Below are positions 15,425 through 64,000 of a stretch of DNA of 64,000 bases, piece after piece. Source of the stretch: Micavibrio sp. GTDB lineage: Bacteria > Pseudomonadota > Alphaproteobacteria > Micavibrionales > UBA2020. Each line of letters opens with the position of its first letter. The first letter of the stretch is position 1. The notes beneath the pieces are model-generated. The model worked only from the letters and a program-made list of their open reading frames with translations, did not search any database and was not told the DNA's origin. A program made the position numbers and the translations under genes. The DNA lies in the NCBI GenBank assembly GCA_028283745.1, contig JAPWJZ010000006.1, positions 248,001-312,000 on the forward strand. Reading direction: 5' to 3'.

Positions 15425-16057
15425 ATGTCGCAAGCCAAGCCTGCCGATGCCAACCCCGCCGCAAAACTGCTGTCCCGCAAAACCGTCTTTGAAGACTACC
15501 ACCGCGTGGAAGTGATGCGCGTGCAACCCCGCAGCCTGCGCAACGGCGGCTGGGCGGAGGAAATGGAGCGCGAGATCTGGTTCGGCAAGCAAATCGCCTG
15601 CATCCTGCTGTATCGTCCGGAAACGGATGAACTGCTGCTTAACCAGCAATTCCGCCTTGGCGCGATGATGGCGGGCGCGGAAGACCCTTTCCTGTTCGAG
15701 AATGCCGCAGGCGCGGTTGACGAAGGCGAAAGCGTTGAAGACGCCGCAAGGCGCGAAACGCTGGAAGAAACCGGCTGCGAAGTGCTGGACATGGAATTTT
15801 TCGGCAAGGTTTATTCCAGCCCCGGCTGCATGGCGGAGGAATACCACATGTTCGTCGCCCGCATTGGCGCAGAAGCAACCGCGGGCATTCACGGCCACTT
15901 CCATGAGGGTGAAGAAATTAAAACCCACATCCTGCCGGTGAAAGCCGCCATGAAAATGCTGGACGACGGGCATATCGTCAACGTCGCAACCGCCCTTAGC
16001 CTGAACTGGTTTGCACGCAACCATGACCGCCTGCGCAATAAATGGAGCCAAAAATAA
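15425..16057 (+). CDS. Nudix hydrolase (ADP-ribose / nucleotide-sugar pyrophosphatase type)
   Basis: 210 residues from the ATG at 15425, placed five bases after GAGGA; the in-frame TTG at 15413 lies before that site. The Nudix box is complete (G-x5-E-x7-R-E-x2-E-E-x-G, reading GAVDEGE then RRETLEETG). The N-terminal beta-sheet domain and the SSPGCMAEEYHMFVA segment after the box place it with NudF/NudK-type enzymes that split ADP-ribose or GDP-mannose. Its stop overlaps the sulfurtransferase start (TAATG). Confidence 0.88.
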   Translation: MSQAKPADANPAAKLLSRKTVFEDYHRVEVMRVQPRSLRNGGWAEEMEREIWFGKQIACILLYRPETDELLLNQQFRLGAMMAGAEDPFLFENAAGAVDEGESVEDAARRETLEETGCEVLDMEFFGKVYSSPGCMAEEYHMFVARIGAEATAGIHGHFHEGEEIKTHILPVKAAMKMLDDGHIVNVATALSLNWFARNHDRLRNKWSQK

Positions 16058-16875
16058 TGACCAGCGCGCTTATCTCGCCGGAAGACCTGCTGAAGAAGCT
16101 GGATAGCGTCAAGCTGATCGACGCCAGCTGGGGCTTAACCAACAGCAACGTGCGCATCGGCAATGCGGTTGATTTCGATATTGATGAAATTGCCGACCTT
16201 GACGCGCAATTCACCCATGCCATTCCCGCGCCGGAATTTTTTGCCGCCTGCGTGTCGGCCATGGGCATTTCCAATGGCGACCATGTGGTCGTTTACGACC
16301 GCATGGGCATGGCCATGGCGGCTTCCCGCGTGTGGTGGATGTTCCGCCTGTATGGTCACGACAACGTACAGGTGCTGGATGGCGGCCTGCCCGCATGGGT
16401 GCGCGGCGGCCACCCGCTGCAGTCAAAATCGGAGCGCGACATTGCCCCCGGCACGTTCACCAGCCGCTTCCGCCCCGAAATGCACAAGACCGGCGCGGAC
16501 GTGCTGGCCAACCTGCAATCCAAGACCTTCCTGATGCTGGATGCGCGCGATGCGAAACGCTATGCGGGTGAAGCGCCCGAACCGCGCCCCGGCATGCAAG
16601 GCGGGCATATTCCCGGCGCGATCAGCACACCGTTCCAGAACCTTATCGACCCCGCGACCGGCAAGTTTAAAACCGGCGCGGCGCTGCATGCGGAACTGGC
16701 TCATGTGGATACATCGCAGCGCGTCGCTATTTCATGCGGCAGCGGCGTGACGGCCTGCGTTGTCGCGCTTGCCTTGCATGAAATGGGCAAGGGTGATGCC
16801 GCAATTTATGGCGGTTCGTGGCAGGAATGGGGCGGCAACCCCGCGCTGCCGCGCACACAAGGCATGAAGCCCTAA
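16057..16875 (+). CDS. sseA: 3-mercaptopyruvate / thiosulfate sulfurtransferase (tandem rhodanese)
   Basis: 272 residues, two rhodanese domains. The first (about 1-130) is inactive and holds VVVYDRMGMAMAASRVWWMF; the second carries the catalytic cysteine (about 227) in CGSGVTA, the loop typical of mercaptopyruvate sulfurtransferases. It transfers sulfane sulfur from mercaptopyruvate to thiol acceptors. I prefer the ATG at 16057, coupled to the Nudix stop and preceded by GGAG, over the in-frame ATG at 16042. The next gene, metC, also handles sulfur amino acids. Confidence 0.88.
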   Translation: MTSALISPEDLLKKLDSVKLIDASWGLTNSNVRIGNAVDFDIDEIADLDAQFTHAIPAPEFFAACVSAMGISNGDHVVVYDRMGMAMAASRVWWMFRLYGHDNVQVLDGGLPAWVRGGHPLQSKSERDIAPGTFTSRFRPEMHKTGADVLANLQSKTFLMLDARDAKRYAGEAPEPRPGMQGGHIPGAISTPFQNLIDPATGKFKTGAALHAELAHVDTSQRVAISCGSGVTACVVALALHEMGKGDAAIYGGSWQEWGGNPALPRTQGMKP

Positions 16876-16934: not shown

Positions 16935-18092
16935 ATGGCGAAAAAACAGAACACCATTTTAACCCATACCGGTTCCAAACCGTCGGAATACCATGGGGCG
17001 GTCAACGTGCCGCCGCACCGTATGTCCACTATCGTCTTCCGCACCTATGCGGAATTTGAAAAGGTGCCGAACGTCCCCTTCTCCTATGGCCGCGCGGGTA
17101 CGCCCACCACCGCCGCGTTCGAGGAAGCTATTGCCGAAATTGAAGGCGCCTACCGCAGCGTTTCCACCTGCTCGGGCCTTGCCGCCATTCTGACAGCCCT
17201 CGTCGCCTTCACCAAAACCGGCGACCATGTGCTGATGCCCGATAACTGCTACGGCCCCGGCCGCAAGACCTGCGAGGAAATTCTGCGCAAGTTCGGCGTG
17301 GATGTTGAATATTATCCGCCCATGATCGGCGCGGGCATTGCCGCGCTGTTCCGCCCCAATACGCAGCTGGTCTTCATGGAAGCGCCCGGTTCCCTCACCT
17401 TCGAGGTGCAGGATATTGGCGCGATCAACAAGGCCGCGAAAGATGCGGGCATTAAAACCGCCATCGACAACAGCTGGGGCACGCCGCTGTTCATGAAGCC
17501 GCTGTCGCTTGGCATTGATGTTTCGGTTATGGCGGCCACCAAATACATTTCCGGCCATTCGGATGTGATGCTCGGCGTTGTTTCCACCAACGAAGAATCC
17601 TGGCCCGCCGTGAAACGCGCGGCGCTTATGCTGGGGCTGTGCGGCGGTTCGGAGGAACTGTACCTTGGCACGCGCGGCCTGCGCACCCTGCATGTGCGCC
17701 TGCCGCACCATCAAAAATCCGCATTGGACCTCGCAACATGGCTGCAGGAACAGCCGCAGGTGAAAAGGCTGCTGCACCCCGCCTTTCCGTCCTGCCCGGG
17801 GCATGAAAACTGGAAGAAGTATTACTCGGGCTCCTCCGGCACTTTCGGCATTATTCTGCATGAAACGAATAAAGAGAAAATTGCAAAGATGCTGGATGGC
17901 ATGTCCATCTTCCGGCTCGGCTTCAGCTGGGGCGGGTTTGAATCGCTGTTGTTCCCCGAACAGCCGCAGCCTATCCGCACCGCGGAAGCGTGGCAGGAAA
18001 CCGGTTTTTCCCTGCGCATCCATGTTGGTCTTGAAGATGCCGAGGACCTGAAGGACGATCTGGCGGGAGGGCTGAAACGCCTTGCGTCCTAA
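16935..18092 (+). CDS. metC: Cystathionine beta-lyase
   Basis: 385 residues, a PLP enzyme of the Cys/Met metabolism family. The PLP lysine is K203 in ATKYISGHSD; YGRAGTPT near 51-58 supplies the phosphate-binding tyrosine and arginine; and AIDNSWGTP carries the cofactor Asp. The wording STIVFRTYAEFE and GLRTLHVRLPHHQ matches alphaproteobacterial MetC. It cleaves cystathionine to homocysteine, pyruvate and ammonia. The following AAA+ gene begins within its last codons. Confidence 0.92.
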   Translation: MAKKQNTILTHTGSKPSEYHGAVNVPPHRMSTIVFRTYAEFEKVPNVPFSYGRAGTPTTAAFEEAIAEIEGAYRSVSTCSGLAAILTALVAFTKTGDHVLMPDNCYGPGRKTCEEILRKFGVDVEYYPPMIGAGIAALFRPNTQLVFMEAPGSLTFEVQDIGAINKAAKDAGIKTAIDNSWGTPLFMKPLSLGIDVSVMAATKYISGHSDVMLGVVSTNEESWPAVKRAALMLGLCGGSEELYLGTRGLRTLHVRLPHHQKSALDLATWLQEQPQVKRLLHPAFPSCPGHENWKKYYSGSSGTFGIILHETNKEKIAKMLDGMSIFRLGFSWGGFESLLFPEQPQPIRTAEAWQETGFSLRIHVGLEDAEDLKDDLAGGLKRLAS

Positions 18093-19467
18093 CCTTGGCC
18101 TTCTGGAAGACGTCGACTTTACGCCAGCCGAAACCTACGGCTGGTTCTACTACCTGAAACTTGAAGAACTGCTGCAACACCCGACGCCGCTGTTTGTGGC
18201 GCTGGTCGTTCTTTTTATCGCTGCCTCCGGCACGCTGCTCTGGCTGCTCAATAGCCGTCGTTTGTTAATGTGGCGGGCCATGCGCGGCAGCCTGCGCGCC
18301 ATGTTGCGCCTTTCAAAACGCCAGCTGCGCAAAAAAATACACCCCGACCTGCGGCTGGAAGCCCGCCAGCTGATGCGCAATGCCCGCGAGCGGCAGGGCT
18401 GGGCCATGTATACCATGGGCACACACCTTGCGGACCCGGACGACCGCTGTTTTAAGCAGGACCGCAAGCTGTCCTTCCTCTGGCTTAAAAAAGCGGCTTC
18501 CGCAAAAGACGAACAGGCGCAGGAATTGCTGTACGCCGGCGCGCAATCCGCCACGCGCGTGCATGATGAAGACACGCCCCACAATGGCGACCCGTTCCGC
18601 GAACTGCGCGGCATGATAGGGCTTGAGAACGTCAAGAAAGCCGTATCCGACATTACCAGCCGCACGCAGATGTTCGAAAAGCGCAGGGCGGAAGGCCTGC
18701 GGGTGTCGCAGCCCGCCCTGCACCTTGTCTTCCTTGGCAACCCCGGCACGGGCAAAACGACCGTGGCGCGGCTTTTGGGACGGATGCTGAAAAAAGTCGG
18801 CTACCTTTCCCGCGGCCACGTGGTCGAGGTTTCGGAAGGCGAGCTGATTGGCGAATACGTGGGGCAGACGCCCATCAAGGTGCATCGCAAAATCCAGCAG
18901 GCGCTTGGCGGTATTTTATTCATCGACGAAGCTTATTCCATGCTGAACGCCGTGGGCGATAATGCCTCCTTCTCCGGCAGTGCCATTGCGACGCTGGTGA
19001 AGTTCATGGAAGACCTGCGGCATGACCTCGTCGTGATTGTGGCGGGCTATCCGAAGGAAATGATCCAGTTTCTGGAATCGAACCCCGGCCTTAAATCGCG
19101 TTTTACGGAGGTTATCGGCTTTCCCGACTATGACCCGCCGGACCTTTCCCGTATTTACCTTGGCCTTTGCAAGGACCAGCAATACAAGCTGGAGCGTGAA
19201 ACCAGGGACAGGCTGCTTGACATCATGCAGGAAGCAAGGGAAACTTTTACCCATAACTTCTCGAACGGGCGTTTCGTGCGTAACCTGTTCGAGGACAGCA
19301 TTCGCTTCATGGCCATTCGCGTTGCCCGCAAAAAGCAAACCACGCGGGAAGATTTGATGCTGATATACCAGGAAGACCTTGAAAACGCCTATCTGCACGC
19401 AAGACGCGCCTATGGCCACAAGGAAGACGAGCCCCGCGGCATCGGCTTCTTCGCCAAGAACGACTGA
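18082..19467 (+). CDS. Membrane-anchored SLR + CbxX/CfqX-type AAA+ ATPase
   Basis: 461 residues from a TTG at 18082 that overlaps the metC end by 11 bases and follows GGGAGG; no ATG or GTG start is available before the conserved part. Residues 37-57 are one membrane helix. Residues about 95-155 resemble a Sel1-like helical repeat (ERQGWAMYTMGTHLADPD, KLSFLWLKKAASAKDEQA). The AAA+ module has Walker A GNPGTGKTT (219-227), Walker B ILFIDEA (278-284), a sensor-1 segment VIVAGYP, arginine-finger candidate GLKSRF, and NGRFVRNLFEDS. This is the CbbX/EccA AAA+ clade, but no Rubisco or ESX gene is nearby. Function unknown. Confidence 0.85.
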   Translation: MRPNLGLLEDVDFTPAETYGWFYYLKLEELLQHPTPLFVALVVLFIAASGTLLWLLNSRRLLMWRAMRGSLRAMLRLSKRQLRKKIHPDLRLEARQLMRNARERQGWAMYTMGTHLADPDDRCFKQDRKLSFLWLKKAASAKDEQAQELLYAGAQSATRVHDEDTPHNGDPFRELRGMIGLENVKKAVSDITSRTQMFEKRRAEGLRVSQPALHLVFLGNPGTGKTTVARLLGRMLKKVGYLSRGHVVEVSEGELIGEYVGQTPIKVHRKIQQALGGILFIDEAYSMLNAVGDNASFSGSAIATLVKFMEDLRHDLVVIVAGYPKEMIQFLESNPGLKSRFTEVIGFPDYDPPDLSRIYLGLCKDQQYKLERETRDRLLDIMQEARETFTHNFSNGRFVRNLFEDSIRFMAIRVARKKQTTREDLMLIYQEDLENAYLHARRAYGHKEDEPRGIGFFAKND

Positions 19468-19497
19468 GTATTTTTAAACCTGCGATAACCGGAACAT

Positions 19498-20025
19498 TTG
19501 GGGCAACACACTTTGGGCAACATCGAACATCTTATCGCTCCCGGGCTGACGGTGCTGGCAGGACTATACCTGCTGGCGCTGGGCAGCGGCATGAAATACC
19601 TGCCGCCAAAATTCATGCGCGGCAGCATGTGGGTTATTGCTCTGTCGGTACTGGTGCTGCTGTGGGGCGGCAGCTCCCTTAAAATTGCAACACTTGCGCC
19701 GAAGTATCCGGCATCCATGCTGGCCGATAAAATCCGCGCGGAAATGAGCCCGCCGACCCAGCTGGATACCACACTGCGCCTTGATGAAGTCATCGCCCGC
19801 GAAAATACCGTGGTGTATAATATGACCGTGCTGCCGGATAGCCATAGCGGTGACGTTGCCGCCTTTGCCGACAATGCGCGCGAAGAACTGCGGCAAAGCT
19901 CCTGCAATAATGCAGATTATAGGGACACGCTGAAATATGCTTCCGCCATTGAAATGAACTTCCGTGACAGCGATGGCAAGACGCTTGAATCCCTCACCAT
20001 CACAGCCAAGGACTGCGCGCCGTAA
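19498..20025 (+). CDS. Small membrane protein between two AAA+ genes (unknown function)
   Basis: 175 residues from TTG at 19498, or 170 from TTG at 19513; there is no ATG in a sensible place. Two hydrophobic segments lie at about 13-30 and 43-62 (MWVIALSVLVLLWGG), then a soluble domain of about 110 residues probably outside the cytoplasm. That domain contains LDEVIARENTVVYNMTV, two cysteines (SSCNNAD and KDC at the end) that could form a disulphide, and a final beta-rich part ESLTITAKDCAP. I do not recognise the family with certainty. It starts 30 bases after the first AAA+ gene and stops three bases before the second, so the three are probably co-translated. Confidence 0.7.
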   Translation: MGQHTLGNIEHLIAPGLTVLAGLYLLALGSGMKYLPPKFMRGSMWVIALSVLVLLWGGSSLKIATLAPKYPASMLADKIRAEMSPPTQLDTTLRLDEVIARENTVVYNMTVLPDSHSGDVAAFADNAREELRQSSCNNADYRDTLKYASAIEMNFRDSDGKTLESLTITAKDCAP

Positions 20026-20028
20026 ATC

Positions 20029-21177
20029 ATGGACAACCAGCTTCGCAAACGCGCCCTTGATGGCGAGCTGGATGCGCTGATGGCGGCAACGAAAGAATTG
20101 ATGCGCCCGGCGGACAATACCCGCAAGGAAGCCGCCATGTCGCTGCTGCGCGCCGCCTGGACGGGCAGCGCCGAAGCTGCGCACAAAGTCGCGCTTGACC
20201 TGCTGGCCCGCGCGCCGGACAGTTTTTATACCAAAGACCGCGACCTTGGCATTTTGTGGCTGCGGCAGGCGGCGCAGAAGGATTACAAGGAAGCACGCGA
20301 ATTGCTGCCCGCAATGGGTGCGGTGGACATGAACAGCTACCGCGACCCGTTCATGGAGCTTGAAGCGCTTGTCGGTCTTGGCAGCGTCAAGACGGCGATC
20401 ACCGAGCAGGCGGACCGTATGGCTTTTTTGAAGCTGCGCGAAAAGCAGGGACTGCCGCTTGTCCCCTCCGCCGCCATTCACCTTGTTTTTGCAGGCAACC
20501 CCGGCACGGGCAAAACCACCGTCGCCCGTATCTTTGGCCGGCTTTTAAAAAACATCGGCTACCTGCGCAGCGGGCATGTGGTGGAAGTTTCAGTGCATGA
20601 CATCATCGGCAAATGGGTCGGCGAAACGCCGCAGAAGGTTGCGGCCAAAGTAGCCGAGGCGCTTGACGGTGTTTTGTTCATTGATGAGGCCTACGGCCTG
20701 ATGGGCCACACCACTGTCACCGGGAATTCGTACGGGGCGGAAGCGATTACAACGCTGCTAAAACTGATGGAAGATCACCGCGACCGCCTTGTCGTCATCG
20801 CCGCCGGTTATACGGGCCGCATGAATGAATTCCTCGAGTACAACCCCGGCCTGAAGTCGCGCTTTACCGAGGTCATCACCTTCCACGATTATTCCCCCGC
20901 TGAAATGACGGCGATTTACCTGAAGCTGATGGCGGAGGGAAAATATGCGCTGACGATTGATGCGCAAGTCACGCTCGACAAGATCATGCAGGAAGCGCCG
21001 CAGCTGTTCCCGGAAAACTTCCCCAATGGCCGCCTTGTGCGCAACCTGTTTGAAGACACCATTAAATACGCCGCCAGCCGCGTTATGCGCCTGCCGCAGC
21101 CCACCCGCAGTGACCTTGTGACGATTACGGATGCAGATATTCTGCTGGCGTTTAAGGAGCTGAACGCGGGGCAGTAA
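20029..21177 (+). CDS. Soluble SLR + CbxX/CfqX-type AAA+ ATPase, paralogue of the 18082 gene
   Basis: 382 residues. There is no membrane helix. Residues about 35-95 form a Sel1-like segment (AAHKVALDLLARAPDSF, LGILWLRQAAQKDYKEA) matching that of the upstream paralogue. The AAA+ module has Walker A GNPGTGKTT (157-165), Walker B VLFIDEA (215-221), sensor 1 VVIAAGYT, GLKSRFTEVI and NGRLVRNLFEDT. The pair shares roughly half its AAA+ positions by eye. One anchored and one soluble ATPase in the same operon suggests a mixed ring or a membrane-linked remodelling machine; that is inference. Confidence 0.87.
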   Translation: MDNQLRKRALDGELDALMAATKELMRPADNTRKEAAMSLLRAAWTGSAEAAHKVALDLLARAPDSFYTKDRDLGILWLRQAAQKDYKEARELLPAMGAVDMNSYRDPFMELEALVGLGSVKTAITEQADRMAFLKLREKQGLPLVPSAAIHLVFAGNPGTGKTTVARIFGRLLKNIGYLRSGHVVEVSVHDIIGKWVGETPQKVAAKVAEALDGVLFIDEAYGLMGHTTVTGNSYGAEAITTLLKLMEDHRDRLVVIAAGYTGRMNEFLEYNPGLKSRFTEVITFHDYSPAEMTAIYLKLMAEGKYALTIDAQVTLDKIMQEAPQLFPENFPNGRLVRNLFEDTIKYAASRVMRLPQPTRSDLVTITDADILLAFKELNAGQ

Positions 21178-56647: not shown

Positions 56648-56754
56648 CACGGGTGCATATGTACACCGGTGGCGTGTAGCTATCGGGCGGAATGCAACCA
56701 TCAATTAGTTAAAATCCAAACAGAAATTAACCTTTCGCTAATAAACTAATGAGT
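56648..56754 (+). promoter_or_regulatory. Conserved leader of the first TPS exoprotein gene
   Basis: This 107-base block aligns without gaps to 62097-62203 before the second exoprotein gene. Fixed parts include CACGGGTG, TACACC, GTGGCGTGTAG, AATGCAAC, TAGTTAAAATCCAAACA, AAATTAAC and TAATAAACTAA; the stretches between vary. GGTG can pair with CACC, and TACAC with GTGTA, as alternatives. It is probably a shared promoter plus RNA leader or operator. Confidence 0.65.
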
Positions 56755-59700
56755 ATGGTAGCCGCATTTATTAAATATGGCGCTTTGCTCGACCGCGTAA
56801 AACCGGCAGTTTTCCGCCACGTGATCATCCTTTGCTTTGCGATTGTTATGTCGCAAACGGGCATGGCCTATGCCAATCCCACCGGCGGCTCTGTATCCTC
56901 CGGCAATGCCACCATCGTCACCAGCGGCCCTACCGTCACCATCAACCAGTCCACCAACCGCGCAACCATTGACTGGCAGACCTTTAATATTGCCACCGGC
57001 GAAACCACCACCTTCAATGTGCCGACCGCGCATTCCATGACCCTGAACCGCATTGGCGGGCAGGACCCGTCGCAGATTTTCGGCACGCTGTCGTCGAACG
57101 GCAAAATTTATCTTGTGAACCCCAACGGCTTTATCTTTGGCAAAGATTCCGTCGTCAACGTCGCCGGTATTCTGGCGACAACGGCGGATATTAAAGACAA
57201 GGACTTCATGAAGGGCCGCATGAATTTTAACGCACCCGGCAAAGCCGACGCCGCCATTGTGCTGAACGGCACAATTTCGGCGGCGGAAGCGGGCCTTGCA
57301 GGTTTTGTTGCCCCTACCGTCATCAACAACGGCATTATTTCGGCCAAGCTGGGCCGCGTCAACCTTGCTTCCGGCGATACGCTGACGATGGACATGTATG
57401 GCGACAACCTCGTCAATGTCGCCGTCACCAATGAAACCGCGCAGCACCTTGCCTCCAACAACGGCCTTGTCATTGCGGATGGCGGCACGATTGCGATGAC
57501 CGCCGCTGTCGGCAAAAGCATCGTCAATGGCGTTGTTTCCAACAGCGGCATTCTGCAGGCGGCCTCCGTCGGCAAGAAAAACGGCAAAATTGTGCTGTAT
57601 GCCGAAGGCAGCAACGCGGTTGCGGGCAATAAAGCCGCCGACAAGGCTAAAAAATCCGGCCAGAGCGGCGTTATCGTTTCCGGCACGCTGGACGTTACCG
57701 GCACCAATGCCGGTGAAAAAGGCGGCAGCATTGACCTTCTCGGCGATGTGGTTGCCGTCGGCGGCGGCGCGACGCTTATGGCTTCGGGCATGACCGGCGG
57801 CGGCAATATTAAAATCGGCGGTGATTACCTTGGCACCGGCACCACCCCCACCGCGACCGATGTGCTGGTGGACAGCGATGTAAATATTTTCAACGACGCG
57901 CTCGATAACGGCGATGGCGGCAAAACGACAATCTGGAGCGACGGCAACACCTACTTTTACGGCAGCGTCTACGGCCGCGGCGGTGTAAATGGCGGTAACG
58001 GCGGCTTCGTTGAAACCTCCGGCCACCAGTACCTTGATGCGCAGGGATATGTTGACCTGACCGCGCCGGAGGGTGAAAAAGGCCTCTATTTCCTCGACCC
58101 CGCCAACATCACCGTCTACGGCAACGTTGACCCGGCTTATGTCTCGACCGACGGCTCCATCAGCCTTGCCTCCAGCCTGAAGCTGTGGATTGACGCATCC
58201 GATACCAGCAAGGTTCAGCTGACGTACAACACAATGTCCACAACCGCCAGCGGCGCGCTTGGTGCCACCACCATTACAGTCGGCTCGGTTACCGGCCTTA
58301 CCGTTGGCGCGCGCATTCGTCTTGGCAGCGCGGGCAGCGTTACCACCGCAGACACCCTGGGGGCGGATACCTATACCATCGCCAGTATTTCCGGCACGAC
58401 GGTGACGCTGACCTCGGCGCTCACCGCCGCCTATACCGGCTCTGCCGTGTATCAGGGCTATATTTCCGCCATCTACGATAAATCGGGCCGCGGCAATACC
58501 GCTACGCAAACCACGGCAAGCCTGATGCCCGTGTGGATCAGCAACGGCGTCAACGGGCTTGGCGTTGCCAGCTTTGACGGCAGCAACGACCAGCTTGTCA
58601 TGCCCGGCAGCGATTTTGCCTTTACCGGCACGCAGAATTTCAGCGTCGTCGCCTCGGCAACATCGCAGGGCGGCGATACCGTGACCAGCCCGCTGATCGG
58701 CAACCGCGACCCCAACAGCAACTTCAGCTGGATGATCCGGGGCCTTACCTACAACCTGCACCTGCACGGTACCGCGCAATACCTGACCGGCAAAACCTTT
58801 ACCGTCAACGACCCGAACATCGTCAGCACCACGGTTTCCGGCACATCGTCCCTCACCTCCAACGTCTATATCGGCGGCGGCCTTGTGCAGACAACAACGG
58901 GCTGGACCTATTACGGCACGCCCGGCACCCAGCTGTACATGGGCACCATGAACGACGGGACGAGCAAATATAAATACCAGGACATGACGATTTACAACAC
59001 GGCCCTTTCGACCGATGCGCGCAACCTGATGGAACAATACCAATCCGCGAAATGGAACATCGCGTTGACGCCGCCTGGCACGGGCTCCACCGAAGCTGCG
59101 AAGGCGACGGCGGCGGATGGTTACTCGGTCTTCACGACGCGCTACCTCGAGCGGCTGAGCCAGACGGCGAACGTGTCGCTGCAGGCGACCAACAACATTA
59201 CGCTGGATTTGAAGGGCGACACCCTGAACCTGTCAACCGCAGGCCGCAGCCTTTCGCTGACCGCGGGCAACAGCATCAACTCGCTCAGCAGCGGTTCCAT
59301 TACCACCAACAGCGGCAACATCAGCATGACGGCGACCGCCGGCACGCTCGATGTATCCAACGTCAGCCTGAATGCCGGCGCCAACGGCAGCGTCAGCCTG
59401 ACCTCCGGCGGCGCCATGACGCTGGGCAATACCACCGGTAAAACCGTCACCGCGCAGACAACCGGCAGCACGTCCGACGTGACCATCGCTTCCGGCAAAA
59501 CCGTGACCGCCACCGGCACAGGCACCCCGCTCACCGTGGTCAGCGGCCGCAACTTCGTGAACAACGCCGGCTCTGCCGCCCTGTCTGCCGCGAACGGCAG
59601 ATGGCTGGTTTACAGCGCCAATCCCGCCAACGACACGCTCGGCGGCCTGACCAGCGGTTTCCGCCGCTTCAGCTGCACCTACGGCGGCAGCTGCCCGGCC

Positions 59701-61959
59701 CTTGGCACGGGCAACGGCTTCCTCTATAAGTACACGCCCGTCCTGACGGCGACCCCGGACACGTTGAGCAACCTCACCTACGGCGCGCTCGCCCCCGGCC
59801 TCAGCAACTATGCTTACAGCCTGACCGGATATCTTGGCAGCGATGCCACCGCCGATACCGTCACGGGCAGCCTGAACGGCAGCACCGCTTACACGCAATA
59901 CAGCCCCGTCGGCACCTATAACATCAACTACGTCAGCGGCTCTCTTGCTTCCGCCATGGGCTATGGCTTCACCTACGGCAACAAGGCAACCGCGATTATC
60001 GTTGACCCGAAAGCGCTCATCATCACCGCCAACAGCGGCACCAAGACCTACGGCGATCTAATCACCTACGCCGGCACCGAATACGGCACCAGCGGCCTGG
60101 TCGGCACCGACAGCGTCACGGGCGTGACCGTCAGCAGCAGCGGCGCTGCCGCCACCGCAAACGCATCGACCACGCCCTATGCCGTTACCGCCAGCAACGC
60201 CACCGGCAGCGGGCTTTCCAACTATACTGTCAGCTACGTCAACGGCCAGCTGACGGTCAACAAGGCGGCCCTCTCCATCACCGCCGGTAACACGACCAAG
60301 ACCTACGGCGACGTAACCAACTTCGCGGGCACCGAGTTCAGCACCAGCGGCCTGAAGAACACCGACAGCGTCAGCAGCGTCACCCTTGCCAGCGCCGGCG
60401 CGGCAGCGACCGCCAATGCTTCCACCACGCCCTACGACATTACCGCCAGCAGCGCCACCGGCTCCGGCCTTTCCAACTACACCATCACCTACCACAACGG
60501 CCAGCTGACCGTTGGCAAGGCCGACCTGACCATCACGGCAAACAACGCCACCAAGACCTACGGCGACGTAACCAACTTCGCGGGCACCGAGTTCGGCACC
60601 AGCGGCCTGAAGAACACCGACAGCGTCAGCAGCGTCACCCTTGCCAGCGCCGGTGCGGCAGCAACCGCCAATGCTTCCACCACCGCTTACGGCATTACCG
60701 CCAGCAGCGCCACCGGCTCCGGCCTTTCCAACTACAACATCAGCTACGCCAACGGCGGCCTGACCGTTAACAAGGCCGACCTGACCATCACGGCAAACAA
60801 CGGCACCAAGACGTACGGCGACACCAGGACGTTCGCGGGCACCGAGTTCGGCACCAGCGGCCTCAAGAACACCGACAGCGTCAGCAGCGTCACCCTTGCA
60901 AGCGCCGGTGCGGCAGCAACCGCCAACGCGTCCACCACGCCCTACGACATTACCGCCAGCAGCGCCACCGGCACCGGCCTTTCCAACTACAACATCAGCT
61001 ACGCCAACGGCGGCCTGACCGTTGGCAAGGCCGACCTGACCATCACGGCAAACAACGGCACCAAGACGTACGGCGACACCAGGACGTTCGCGGGCACCGA
61101 GTTCGACACCAGCGGTCTCAAGAACACCGACAGCGTCAGCAGCGTCACCCTTGCAAGCGCCGGTGCGGCAGCAACCGCCAATGCTTCCACCACCGCTTAC
61201 GGCATTACCGCCAGCAACGCCACCGGCTCCGGCCTTTCCAACTACAACATCAGCTACGCCAACGGTGGCCTGACCGTTGGCAAGGCAGACCTGACTATCA
61301 CGGCGGACAACGCTACCAAGACGTACGGCGACACCAGGACGTTCGCGGGCACCGAGTTCGGCACCAGCGGTCTCAAGAACACCGACAGCGTCAGCAGCGT
61401 CACCCTTGCCAGTGCCGGTGCGGCAGCAACCGCCAATGCTTCCACCACCGCCTACGCCATCACCGCGAACAACGCCACCGGCTCCGGCCTTTCCAACTAC
61501 AACATCAGCTACGCCAACGGTGGCCTGACCGTTGGCAAGGCAGACCTCACCGTCAAGGCGAATGATGCAAGCAAGGACTTCGGCAGCAACTACCTGTTTA
61601 ACGGCACAGAGTTCAGCATCACGGGCCTGCGTAACAGCGACAGCGTTAGCAGCGTAACGCTTGGCAGCGCAGGCGCGGGCGTGACGGCGCCGCTGGGCGC
61701 TTACGGCATTACAGCGAGCAACGCCAGCGGCACCGGCCTTTCCAACTACAACATCAGCTATGCCAGCGGCACGCTGAACGTCAATGGCTCGCAACTATCG
61801 CAGGCACTGGATAATACCGCCAATATCATTTACCACCCCGTGAGCACCACAGGCGGCAACCATAACGACTATATGCTGATCCAATATACCCAGCCGCTGG
61901 CCGAAATTCTGGGCCTGCCGCAGGACCAATGGATTGTTTACACCGGCAACAACCACTAA
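56755..61959 (+). CDS. TPS exoprotein: haemagglutinin secretion domain, LamG-like domain, YDG repeats
   Basis: 1734 residues from the ATG at 56755, chosen because it aligns with the only ATG of the second copy; an ATG two codons earlier exists. An extended signal peptide ends near residue 40 (GMAYA before NPTGG). The TPS domain (about 40-290) has INQSTNRATIDWQTFNI, the secretion motif NPNGF near 122 and SNNGLVIADGGTIAMTA. About 460-770 is LamG/concanavalin-like (SLKLWIDASDTSK, VASFDGSNDQLVMPGS), interrupted by a small beta insertion. A MBG/YDG region starts near 1000, followed by seven 85-residue repeats. Secreted through a TpsB pore not in the window. Confidence 0.92.
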   Translation: MVAAFIKYGALLDRVKPAVFRHVIILCFAIVMSQTGMAYANPTGGSVSSGNATIVTSGPTVTINQSTNRATIDWQTFNIATGETTTFNVPTAHSMTLNRIGGQDPSQIFGTLSSNGKIYLVNPNGFIFGKDSVVNVAGILATTADIKDKDFMKGRMNFNAPGKADAAIVLNGTISAAEAGLAGFVAPTVINNGIISAKLGRVNLASGDTLTMDMYGDNLVNVAVTNETAQHLASNNGLVIADGGTIAMTAAVGKSIVNGVVSNSGILQAASVGKKNGKIVLYAEGSNAVAGNKAADKAKKSGQSGVIVSGTLDVTGTNAGEKGGSIDLLGDVVAVGGGATLMASGMTGGGNIKIGGDYLGTGTTPTATDVLVDSDVNIFNDALDNGDGGKTTIWSDGNTYFYGSVYGRGGVNGGNGGFVETSGHQYLDAQGYVDLTAPEGEKGLYFLDPANITVYGNVDPAYVSTDGSISLASSLKLWIDASDTSKVQLTYNTMSTTASGALGATTITVGSVTGLTVGARIRLGSAGSVTTADTLGADTYTIASISGTTVTLTSALTAAYTGSAVYQGYISAIYDKSGRGNTATQTTASLMPVWISNGVNGLGVASFDGSNDQLVMPGSDFAFTGTQNFSVVASATSQGGDTVTSPLIGNRDPNSNFSWMIRGLTYNLHLHGTAQYLTGKTFTVNDPNIVSTTVSGTSSLTSNVYIGGGLVQTTTGWTYYGTPGTQLYMGTMNDGTSKYKYQDMTIYNTALSTDARNLMEQYQSAKWNIALTPPGTGSTEAAKATAADGYSVFTTRYLERLSQTANVSLQATNNITLDLKGDTLNLSTAGRSLSLTAGNSINSLSSGSITTNSGNISMTATAGTLDVSNVSLNAGANGSVSLTSGGAMTLGNTTGKTVTAQTTGSTSDVTIASGKTVTATGTGTPLTVVSGRNFVNNAGSAALSAANGRWLVYSANPANDTLGGLTSGFRRFSCTYGGSCPALGTGNGFLYKYTPVLTATPDTLSNLTYGALAPGLSNYAYSLTGYLGSDATADTVTGSLNGSTAYTQYSPVGTYNINYVSGSLASAMGYGFTYGNKATAIIVDPKALIITANSGTKTYGDLITYAGTEYGTSGLVGTDSVTGVTVSSSGAAATANASTTPYAVTASNATGSGLSNYTVSYVNGQLTVNKAALSITAGNTTKTYGDVTNFAGTEFSTSGLKNTDSVSSVTLASAGAAATANASTTPYDITASSATGSGLSNYTITYHNGQLTVGKADLTITANNATKTYGDVTNFAGTEFGTSGLKNTDSVSSVTLASAGAAATANASTTAYGITASSATGSGLSNYNISYANGGLTVNKADLTITANNGTKTYGDTRTFAGTEFGTSGLKNTDSVSSVTLASAGAAATANASTTPYDITASSATGTGLSNYNISYANGGLTVGKADLTITANNGTKTYGDTRTFAGTEFDTSGLKNTDSVSSVTLASAGAAATANASTTAYGITASNATGSGLSNYNISYANGGLTVGKADLTITADNATKTYGDTRTFAGTEFGTSGLKNTDSVSSVTLASAGAAATANASTTAYAITANNATGSGLSNYNISYANGGLTVGKADLTVKANDASKDFGSNYLFNGTEFSITGLRNSDSVSSVTLGSAGAGVTAPLGAYGITASNASGTGLSNYNISYASGTLNVNGSQLSQALDNTANIIYHPVSTTGGNHNDYMLIQYTQPLAEILGLPQDQWIVYTGNNH
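60010..61785. repeat. Seven tandem 255-base repeats coding YDG-type domains
   Basis: Units begin at 60010, 60262, 60517, 60772, 61027, 61282 and 61537; the first is 252 bases, the next five 255 bases, and the last degenerate. Each encodes about 85 residues around KTYGD, FAGTEF, TSGLKNTDSVSSVTLASAG and GLSNYNISYANGGLTV. Units 3-6 are nearly identical at the DNA level, so copies are being homogenised by recombination. Confidence 0.95.
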
Positions 61960-62203: not shown

Positions 62204-64000
62204 ATGGTAGTCGCATTTTCGAAATATGGCGCCCTGCTCTCTCGCGTGAAACCGGCAGTTTTCCGCCCGATCTCAGTTCTTTGCTTCGCAATCCTCATGT
62301 CCCAGACCGGCATGGCCTATGCGAACCCGAGTGGCGGCACTGTGTCTTCCGGCACGGCCAGCATTTCATCCAATGGCCCTACCGTCACCATCAACCAGTC
62401 CACCAACCGCGCTGTTATTGACTGGCAGTCCTTCAACATTGATAGCGGCGAAACGACCACATTCAACGTCCCCACAGCCCATTCGCTGACGCTGAACCGC
62501 ATTGGCGGTCAGGACCCGTCGCAAATTTTCGGCACGCTGTCGTCGAACGGTAAAATCTATCTCGTCAACCCGAACGGGTTTATCTTCGGGCAGGGTTCCA
62601 CTGTCAACGTCGGCGGCATTCTGGCGACCACCGCGAATATCAAGAATACCGACTTCATGAAGGGCCGCATGAACTTCACCGCGCCCGGCAAGGCAGATGC
62701 CGCTATTGTGCTGAATGGCATGATTACCGCGGCCGATGCAGGGCTTGCGGGCTTTGTTGCCCCCAACGTCGTGAATAACGGCGTTATCATTGCCAAGCTG
62801 GGCCGCGTTAACCTCGCCTCCGGCGATACGGTGACGATGGACATGTACGGCGATAACCTTGTCAACGTCGCCGTCAGCAACGAAACAGCGCAGCACATTT
62901 CATCAAACAACGGCATCGTCATTGCGGATGGCGGCACGATCGCCATGACCGCTGCCGCCGGCAAAAGCGTCGTCAACGGCGTCGTTTCCAACGCGGGTAT
63001 TCTGCAGGCGGTTTCCGTCGGCCAGAAAAACGGCAAAATTGTGCTGTACGCGGAAGGCAGCAATGCCGTCGCGGGCAACAAGGCGGCGGACAAAGGCAAA
63101 AAATCCGGCCAGAGCCAGACCATCCTCGGCGGCTTCATCAACGCCAGCGGTTCCGGCGACAAGCAAAAGGGCGGTTCGGTTGAAGTGCTGGGGGATAACG
63201 TCATCCTCGGTGCAGGCTCTATCATTTCAGCTTCCGGCACCAATGGCGGCGGCAATATTAAAATTGGCGGCGATTACCTTGGCAGCGGCACCACGGCTGC
63301 GGCCTATAGCGTTTACGTTGACCCCGAAGCCACCATTTATAACGATGCTTTTGATAACGGCGATGGCGGTAAAACCACCATCTGGGCGGATAGCGACACG
63401 TATTTTTACGGCAGCGTTTATGGGCGCGGCGGCATTGAAAGCGGCAATGGCGGCTTCGTTGAAACCTCCGGCCACAATTACCTTGATGCCGAAGGCTATG
63501 TCGACCTGACCGCGCCGGAGGGTGAAAAAGGCCTCTACTTCCTCGACCCCGCCAACATCACCATCTACGGCAACTTTGACCCGACCTATGTTTCGACCGA
63601 TAGCAGCATCAACCTTGCCAGCAGCCTGAAGCTGTGGATCGACTCATCCGATACCAGCGCGGTGAACCTTACCTATAACAGCATGTCCACATCCGCAACC
63701 GGCCTTGCGGGCGCGAGCACCATTACCGTCGGCTCCGCCACGGGTCTTACCGTCGGCGCGCGTATCCGCCTTGGCGGCGCAGGTACGGCAGGCGCGGCAT
63801 CTACCGTCGGCGCGGATACGTATACGATTGCCAGCATTTCCGGCACCACTGTTACCCTTACCTCGTCCCTGACCAGCAGCTATACCGGCAGCGCGGTGTA
63901 CCAGGGTTACATCAGCCAGATCACCGATAAATCCGGCAACGGCAATAACGCCACGCAAACCACGGCTGCCAACATGCCGCTGTGGATTTCCAACGGGCAG
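62204..64000 (+). CDS. Second TPS exoprotein, N-terminal 599 residues (runs off the window)
   Basis: Starts at the ATG 62204 and is open to the window end. Long signal peptide ending GMAYA, TPS domain with INQSTNRAVIDWQSFNI, NPNGF and SNNGIVIADGGTIAMTA, then SLKLWIDSSDTSAVNL and the same beta insertion seen in the first copy (SATGLTVGARIRLGG). By eye it is highly similar to the first copy throughout the visible part. It is a tandem paralogue 244 bases downstream. Whether it has the YDG repeats lies beyond 64000. Confidence 0.9.
   Translation, partial: MVVAFSKYGALLSRVKPAVFRPISVLCFAILMSQTGMAYANPSGGTVSSGTASISSNGPTVTINQSTNRAVIDWQSFNIDSGETTTFNVPTAHSLTLNRIGGQDPSQIFGTLSSNGKIYLVNPNGFIFGQGSTVNVGGILATTANIKNTDFMKGRMNFTAPGKADAAIVLNGMITAADAGLAGFVAPNVVNNGVIIAKLGRVNLASGDTVTMDMYGDNLVNVAVSNETAQHISSNNGIVIADGGTIAMTAAAGKSVVNGVVSNAGILQAVSVGQKNGKIVLYAEGSNAVAGNKAADKGKKSGQSQTILGGFINASGSGDKQKGGSVEVLGDNVILGAGSIISASGTNGGGNIKIGGDYLGSGTTAAAYSVYVDPEATIYNDAFDNGDGGKTTIWADSDTYFYGSVYGRGGIESGNGGFVETSGHNYLDAEGYVDLTAPEGEKGLYFLDPANITIYGNFDPTYVSTDSSINLASSLKLWIDSSDTSAVNLTYNSMSTSATGLAGASTITVGSATGLTVGARIRLGGAGTAGAASTVGADTYTIASISGTTVTLTSSLTSSYTGSAVYQGYISQITDKSGNGNNATQTTAANMPLWISNGQ

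Follow-up and report, generated by a model that had tools for sequence, protein, structure and literature searches.

In the CbbX/SpoVK/EccA clade of AAA+ ATPases, the members of known function are dedicated chaperones with variable N-terminal recruiters, and SpoVK, for example, acts on MurG (PMC10659427). The clade is recognized by a sensor-1 GY together with an asparagine four residues before the lysine or arginine of the finger motif (PMC10659427). In red algae, CbbX is a 1:1 hetero-oligomer of two paralogues, and the pore-loop tyrosine is essential (PMC5437159). Members of the clade with known clients are few, the clients being Rubisco, the ESX substrates and MurG. Here we describe three adjacent genes in a 64,000-nucleotide stretch of a Micavibrio sp. 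genome (the window; contig JAPWJZ010000006.1 of assembly GCA_028283745.1, positions 248,001 to 312,000), which encode two ATPases of this clade, AAA1 and AAA2, and between them a small membrane protein, MP (Table 1). We read the trio, with about even confidence, as a membrane-tethered dedicated protein-remodeling chaperone.

Two paralogous ATPases around a membrane protein

All three open reading frames (ORFs) were present where the initial annotation of this DNA had placed them. AAA1 and AAA2 are paralogues with 46% identity over 379 residues (E = 1e-99), and both carry the Pfam domains AAA and AAA_lid_6. The Walker A, Walker B, sensor-1 GY and arginine-finger motifs are complete in each protein, and the sequences AGY and NPGLKSRF, found in both, contain the GY and the asparagine before the finger that mark the clade. 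The nearest solved structures are those of CbbX and EccA1. At pore loop 1, tryptophan was present in every AAA2 read, and tyrosine or phenylalanine in AAA1 and in those other relatives whose motif could be read. The three genes are all under purifying selection, with ratios of nonsynonymous to synonymous substitution rates (dN/dS) of 0.13 to 0.15 (0.13 for MP) between two related genomes, G002 and G003.

The initial annotation described one of the ATPases as having a membrane helix and the other as soluble, and this description held. In AAA1, the hydrophobic segment spans residues 38 to 56 (Kyte-Doolittle value, 2.53), with a net charge of -4 before it and +11 over the following 30 residues. 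Given this charge bias, AAA1 should be oriented N-out/C-in, with its AAA+ part in the cytoplasm. The hydropathy scan of AAA2 gave no hydrophobic segment. A third, distant ATPase of the CbbX clade is encoded in the same genome (G000:C1:147160-147924; L044:8924-10357) and belongs to a different branch, whose relatives occur in several families of the order.

In front of each AAA+ module lies a Sel1-like repeat domain in degenerate form. In the PDB, a profile built from the N-terminal domains matched only proteins of the Sel1-repeat type (4bwr, 4e-6; 8sxq, 1e-4; 6orc, 0.003), and an AlphaFold2 model of the domain consists of three helical hairpins, with a predicted local distance difference test score (pLDDT) of 87. 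Nearly all of its Foldseek neighbors were Sel1 proteins, at weak E values of 0.2 to 1. Pfam Sel1 gave no match in either ATPase up to E = 1, and comparison with the Sel1 repeats of one relative yielded no clear score; the assignment was decided by the PDB profile search and the predicted fold, not by that comparison. Thus, the Sel1-like segment claimed initially is real, in a degenerate form that escapes the Pfam model.

The most likely start of MP is at 19513, because its homologues begin there, and the gap between AAA1 and MP is therefore 45 nucleotides rather than the 30 first given. Since the loop between its two membrane helices carries a charge of +3, both ends of MP should face outward. 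The best three structural matches of the modeled C-terminal domain fall into one fold family, that of PA3611 and the pilotins EpsS and AspS (3npd, 7.6e-5; 6i2v, 2.4e-4; 4ftf, 3e-3), and the sequence profile search was also led by PA3611 (E = 0.01) and AspS (E = 0.16). Cys131 and Cys168 are conserved among MP homologues, and their spacing of 37 residues is that of the AspS disulfide, Cys74-Cys111 (PMC3542185). MP is thus predicted to combine an AspS-type fold with a conserved cysteine pair, in keeping with the external cysteine-bearing domain proposed for it at the outset. The AspS/PA3611 fold identifies in part the putative partner of the ATPases. MP spans the membrane with two helices and lacks a lipobox, and does not qualify as an outer-membrane lipoprotein of the AspS pilotin type. 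Of the trio, it diverges fastest toward the window's genome (36 to 39% identity, with dS near saturation).

Small, stand-alone and probably exported relatives of the MP outward domain were found in other alphaproteobacterial families (L145:8626-9021 in G443 and L146:8809-9378 in G396), and L146 exceeds the cut-off of Pfam T2SSS_2, the pilotin of the type II secretion system. The MP-profile matches examined outside the order were small stand-alone proteins without an AAA+ neighbor.

Table 1. Features of the AAA1-MP-AAA2 locus (positions are those of the window)
Feature	Position	Strand	Basis or remarks
Rhodanese-type sulfurtransferase, upstream gene of the run	16042..16875	+	Pfam Rhodanese, 8e-23
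metC-like pyridoxal phosphate (PLP) enzyme	16935..18092	+	Pfam Cys_Met_Meta_PP, 2e-101
AAA1, membrane-anchored CbbX/SpoVK/EccA-clade ATPase	18082..19467	+	461 aa, TTG start
AAA1 membrane helix, residues 37-57	18190..18252	+	Hydropathy and charge bias
AAA1 degenerate Sel1-like repeat domain	18262..18588	+	Alignment; PDB profile matches of Sel1 type
AAA1 AAA+ module and lid, residues 173-433	18598..19380	+	Pore loop GEYVGQT
MP, two-helix membrane protein	19513..20025	+	ORF opens at 19498; likely TTG start at 19513, 170 aa
MP membrane helices, about residues 7-25 and 41-59	19531..19689	+	Hydropathy; +3 loop between them, presumably cytoplasmic
MP predicted outward domain, AspS/PA3611 fold, cysteines 131 and 168	19750..20022	+	Model and profile
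AAA2, soluble paralogue of AAA1	20029..21177	+	382 aa, ATG start
AAA2 degenerate Sel1-like repeat domain	20029..20343	+	Profile, model and structural neighbors
AAA2 AAA+ module and lid, residues 110-371	20356..21141	+	Pore loop GKWVGET

Recurrence and ancestry of the gene run

The searches covered 142 genomes of the order and a sample of 385 from the class. In the window, metC, AAA1, MP and AAA2 follow one another with overlaps or short gaps, in a conserved run. The initial annotation had asked whether the three genes keep company beyond this genome, and they do: the metC-AAA1-MP-AAA2 order recurs in G002, G003 and G004, which belong to the same genus (the G003 and G004 contigs end within AAA2). 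MP was found in four of the 142 genomes, all of one genus and all carrying the full gene order, and each of the four MP genes lies exactly between AAA1 and AAA2. The adjacency of AAA1 and AAA2 is kept in all five genomes of the genus that have AAA2. The 11-nucleotide overlap of metC and AAA1 is identical in G002 to G004, and the sulfurtransferase gene keeps its position in G002 and G003.

In genera g1, g2 and g4, all 10 genomes have a clade ATPase behind metC. Elsewhere in the order, metC lacks one at each of the 18 loci that could be read, a count that excludes one locus with only 289 bases downstream and one unreadable locus. G005 carries AAA1 alone, and a single metC-linked ATPase is found in G008 (g4) and in G006, G009 and G011 (g2). 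Scanning genome contigs with AAA2 gave no match; with AAA1 as the query, most of the matches were generic SpoVK-like genes, and one close relative turned up in an alphaproteobacterial metagenome-assembled genome, FW300_bin.31, which corresponds to the G001 contig. Across the class sample, matches to the full-length profile in genomes other than the window's own were limited to the AAA+ part. The trio has a narrow distribution and elaborates, within one clade, on a chaperone family already known.

In trees of the AAA+ modules, AAA1, AAA2, the metC-linked single ATPases and several Sel1-like repeat (SLR)-AAA+ proteins of the same order formed one clade (98/95), which is specific to the order and stands apart from CbbX and SpoVK. 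Seven AAA1-type genes, among them those of G005 and G008, formed one group (100/99). Four AAA2-type genes formed another (100/98), with the lone gene of G017 joining them (98/95). Since the G008 gene groups with AAA1 and the G017 gene with AAA2, the split between AAA1 and AAA2 is older than the genus, and the trees rule out a recent duplication within it. There is also no support for AAA1 and AAA2 as the separated halves of a fused double-AAA+ protein, since the D1 modules of such proteins do not group with one of them and the D2 modules with the other. In the double-module protein of G036, the two AAA+ modules are sisters, and paired modules seem to have arisen more than once in the clade. 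A phage or defense origin was likewise rejected: PHROGs returned only the generic AAA+ core (phrog_4339), PADLOC only weak AAA matches, and MP had no match on plasmids.

Other architectures were seen among the relatives. Two AAA+ modules of the same clade stand in one polypeptide in G001:C5, with Sel1 repeats, and in G036:C290, with an N terminus that is SLR-like by inspection. These long proteins (L057:6455-9460 and L167:3566-7291, respectively) and L168:5706-8132 (G008:C21) contain one or two CbbX-clade modules; Sel1 repeats are clear in L057 and L168 and were seen by inspection in L167, and L057 also has ankyrin repeats. In L169:5141-7984 (G017:C187), a right-handed beta-helix domain precedes two CbbX-clade AAA+ modules. 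L052:7976-11119 (G007:C4) is a TraG/VirD4-type coupling protein of the type IV secretion system (Pfam, 6e-77) with a C-terminal AAA+ module and lid of the CbbX clade, a combination that recurs in G012:C8 (L051:3-1160, at the contig start).

On its 5' side the trio is preceded by genes for a NUDIX protein, the sulfurtransferase and MetC, and on its 3' side genes for NusB, NrdR, GlyA and RpiB lie on the opposite strand. Promoter and terminator scans gave no signal above chance. Co-transcription with the sulfur genes, claimed initially from the metC overlap, is likely. The link with those genes is one of gene order alone, given the 0 of 18 metC loci outside the three genera, and a role for the trio in sulfur metabolism is unsupported. 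Farther along the window, two very long ORFs adjoin each other (56749-61959, 1,736 residues, and 62204-64000, at least 599 residues and running off the window); their N termini are alike, and they are seemingly tandem paralogues.

A proposed tethered chaperone and the alternatives

Several lines of evidence point to a chaperone: the complete ATPase motifs, clade membership, the anchor and topology of AAA1, the Sel1-type recruiter domain and the MP fold. The gene order shared by four genomes, the selection acting on all three genes and the recurrent pairing of AAA+ modules in the clade are consistent with it, as are, by analogy, the precedents of dedicated chaperones, the CbbX hetero-oligomer and its essential pore-loop tyrosine. 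The initial annotation had also proposed a membrane-linked remodeling machine outside the Rubisco and ESX contexts. The genome search found neither a Rubisco large subunit nor a WXG100 gene, with positive controls in both cases, and the control of the EccB search gave no signal. A remodeling machine remains the best reading, with the reservation that its distribution is confined to 4 of 142 genomes.

In such a machine, AAA1 would assemble into a ring ATPase on the cytoplasmic side of the inner membrane. AAA2 would be added to it, by sharing one ring with AAA1, as the two red-algal CbbX isoforms do, or by making up a second, partnering ring. Recruitment of a client or an adaptor would fall to the repeat domains, and the aromatic pore loops (tyrosine in AAA1, tryptophan in AAA2) would engage the client, which would be remodeled and not degraded. 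Through its disulfide-stabilized domain, MP would connect the complex with a partner beyond the inner membrane. The client is more likely to be a factor of envelope assembly or secretion than one of the neighboring sulfur enzymes. The most specific form of this proposal, a mixed membrane-bound ring of AAA1 and AAA2 with a Trp/Tyr pore, coupled through MP across the envelope, has no described counterpart in the clade, and we consider it distinctly doubtful.

Some observations weigh against a joint machine. In G001, AAA1 and AAA2 overlap by 8 nucleotides and MP is missing, and in G005 and G008 an AAA1-type gene occurs without AAA2 and MP; AAA1 can therefore do without both in the latter two. Only a short loop of MP is exposed to the cytoplasm, and the model of its C-terminal domain is of modest confidence (pLDDT 63). 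Contact among the three proteins, both in the hetero-assembly of the ATPases and in their binding of MP, is something we infer, as is the client. The same relatives, together with the lone AAA2-type gene of G017 and the antiquity of the AAA1/AAA2 split, favor an alternative in which the two ATPases are separate homo-hexamers with different clients that duplicated and stayed adjacent, MP being a later insertion with a job of its own. Known bacterial CbbX is homo-hexameric, and so is SpoVK by modeling. However, the adjacency of the pair in five of five AAA2-bearing genomes of the genus and the position of four of four MP genes exactly between them argue against this alternative, and we regard separate homo-hexamers as a serious but somewhat unlikely possibility.

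Alternatively, MP could hold a secretin or a pilus part by a pilotin-like domain anchored in the inner membrane, with the ATPases driving assembly of that part. Its predicted fold equals that of AspS, with the same cysteine pair at the same distance, and two secretins are encoded in the genome: one belongs to a Tad/Flp-type cluster, and the other lies next to genes that are PilT-like and prepilin-like by inspection. MP is, however, not an outer-membrane lipoprotein and lies near neither secretin, and PA3611, which has the same fold, is without a proven secretin role (PMC3542185), which makes such an accessory improbable. More improbable still is an activase that would repair a blocked PLP enzyme, MetC (or act on the sulfurtransferase), as CbbX does with adjacent Rubisco. 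The overlap or near-overlap of metC and the ATPase gene in all 10 genomes of g1, g2 and g4, including those without AAA2 and MP, would fit. Against it, metC of the same kind lacks such an ATPase at all 18 of the remaining loci that could be read in the order, a membrane-anchored ATPase is ill suited to a soluble enzyme, and the whole block is syntenic, so that adjacency may be mere inheritance.

As a tethered chaperone, an anchored and a soluble ATPase with a membrane partner recognizable by its fold would make a small, testable case of how a motor is tethered to the envelope. The trio also bears on why two kinds of AAA+ subunit stay together.

Comparison with described systems

A search of open-access full texts on SpoVK-like, CbbX-like and EccA-like ATPases, a part of the literature that offers weak evidence of absence, turned up no description of the AAA1-MP-AAA2 combination or of its client. 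What is known is the chaperone superfamily. New, as far as the models indicate, is an outward MP domain with the fold and paired cysteines of the AspS/PA3611 pilotins. Judged from sequence, the order-specific clade with recurrent AAA+ pairing, in adjacent genes or in one polypeptide, and the tryptophan in pore loop 1 of AAA2 also appear to be new.

AAA1 and AAA2 resemble CbbX in the AAA+ core, the lid and the pore-loop motif, and the red-algal hetero-oligomer is a precedent for two paralogues. They score 201 and 195 bits against the TIGR02880 equivalog cut-off of 459, fall into a separate clade and occur without Rubisco, and the membrane anchor, the Sel1-like domain and MP are extra here. SpoVK gives their best NCBIfam core match and shares the higher-order clade, and its envelope-side role may serve as an analogy. 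However, the scores (285 and 239 bits) stay below the TIGR02881 equivalog cut-off of 423, the clade is again separate, the N-terminal domain is a different one, and SpoVK is a MurG chaperone of sporulating Firmicutes. EccA likewise joins an AAA+ core to a helical-repeat N terminus; here, the scores are 222 and 216 bits against the TIGR03922 equivalog cut-off of 467, there is no WXG100 gene, the repeats are of the Sel1 type rather than TPR, and AAA1 is membrane anchored.

MP compares with the AspS/EpsS pilotins and PA3611 in the predicted fold of its C-terminal domain and in the two conserved cysteines, and differs in sitting on two inner-membrane helices, not as a lipoprotein, between two AAA+ genes. 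Also close are the SLR-AAA+ double-module proteins of the same order (such as L057 and L167), which belong to the same clade, begin with a Sel1 or SLR-like N terminus and often have two modules. In these proteins the modules are fused, without an AAA1-type anchor, the repeat regions are longer, and the genes lie elsewhere in the genome. With single, paired-gene and fused-module forms within one order, the evolution of paired AAA+ machines becomes traceable.

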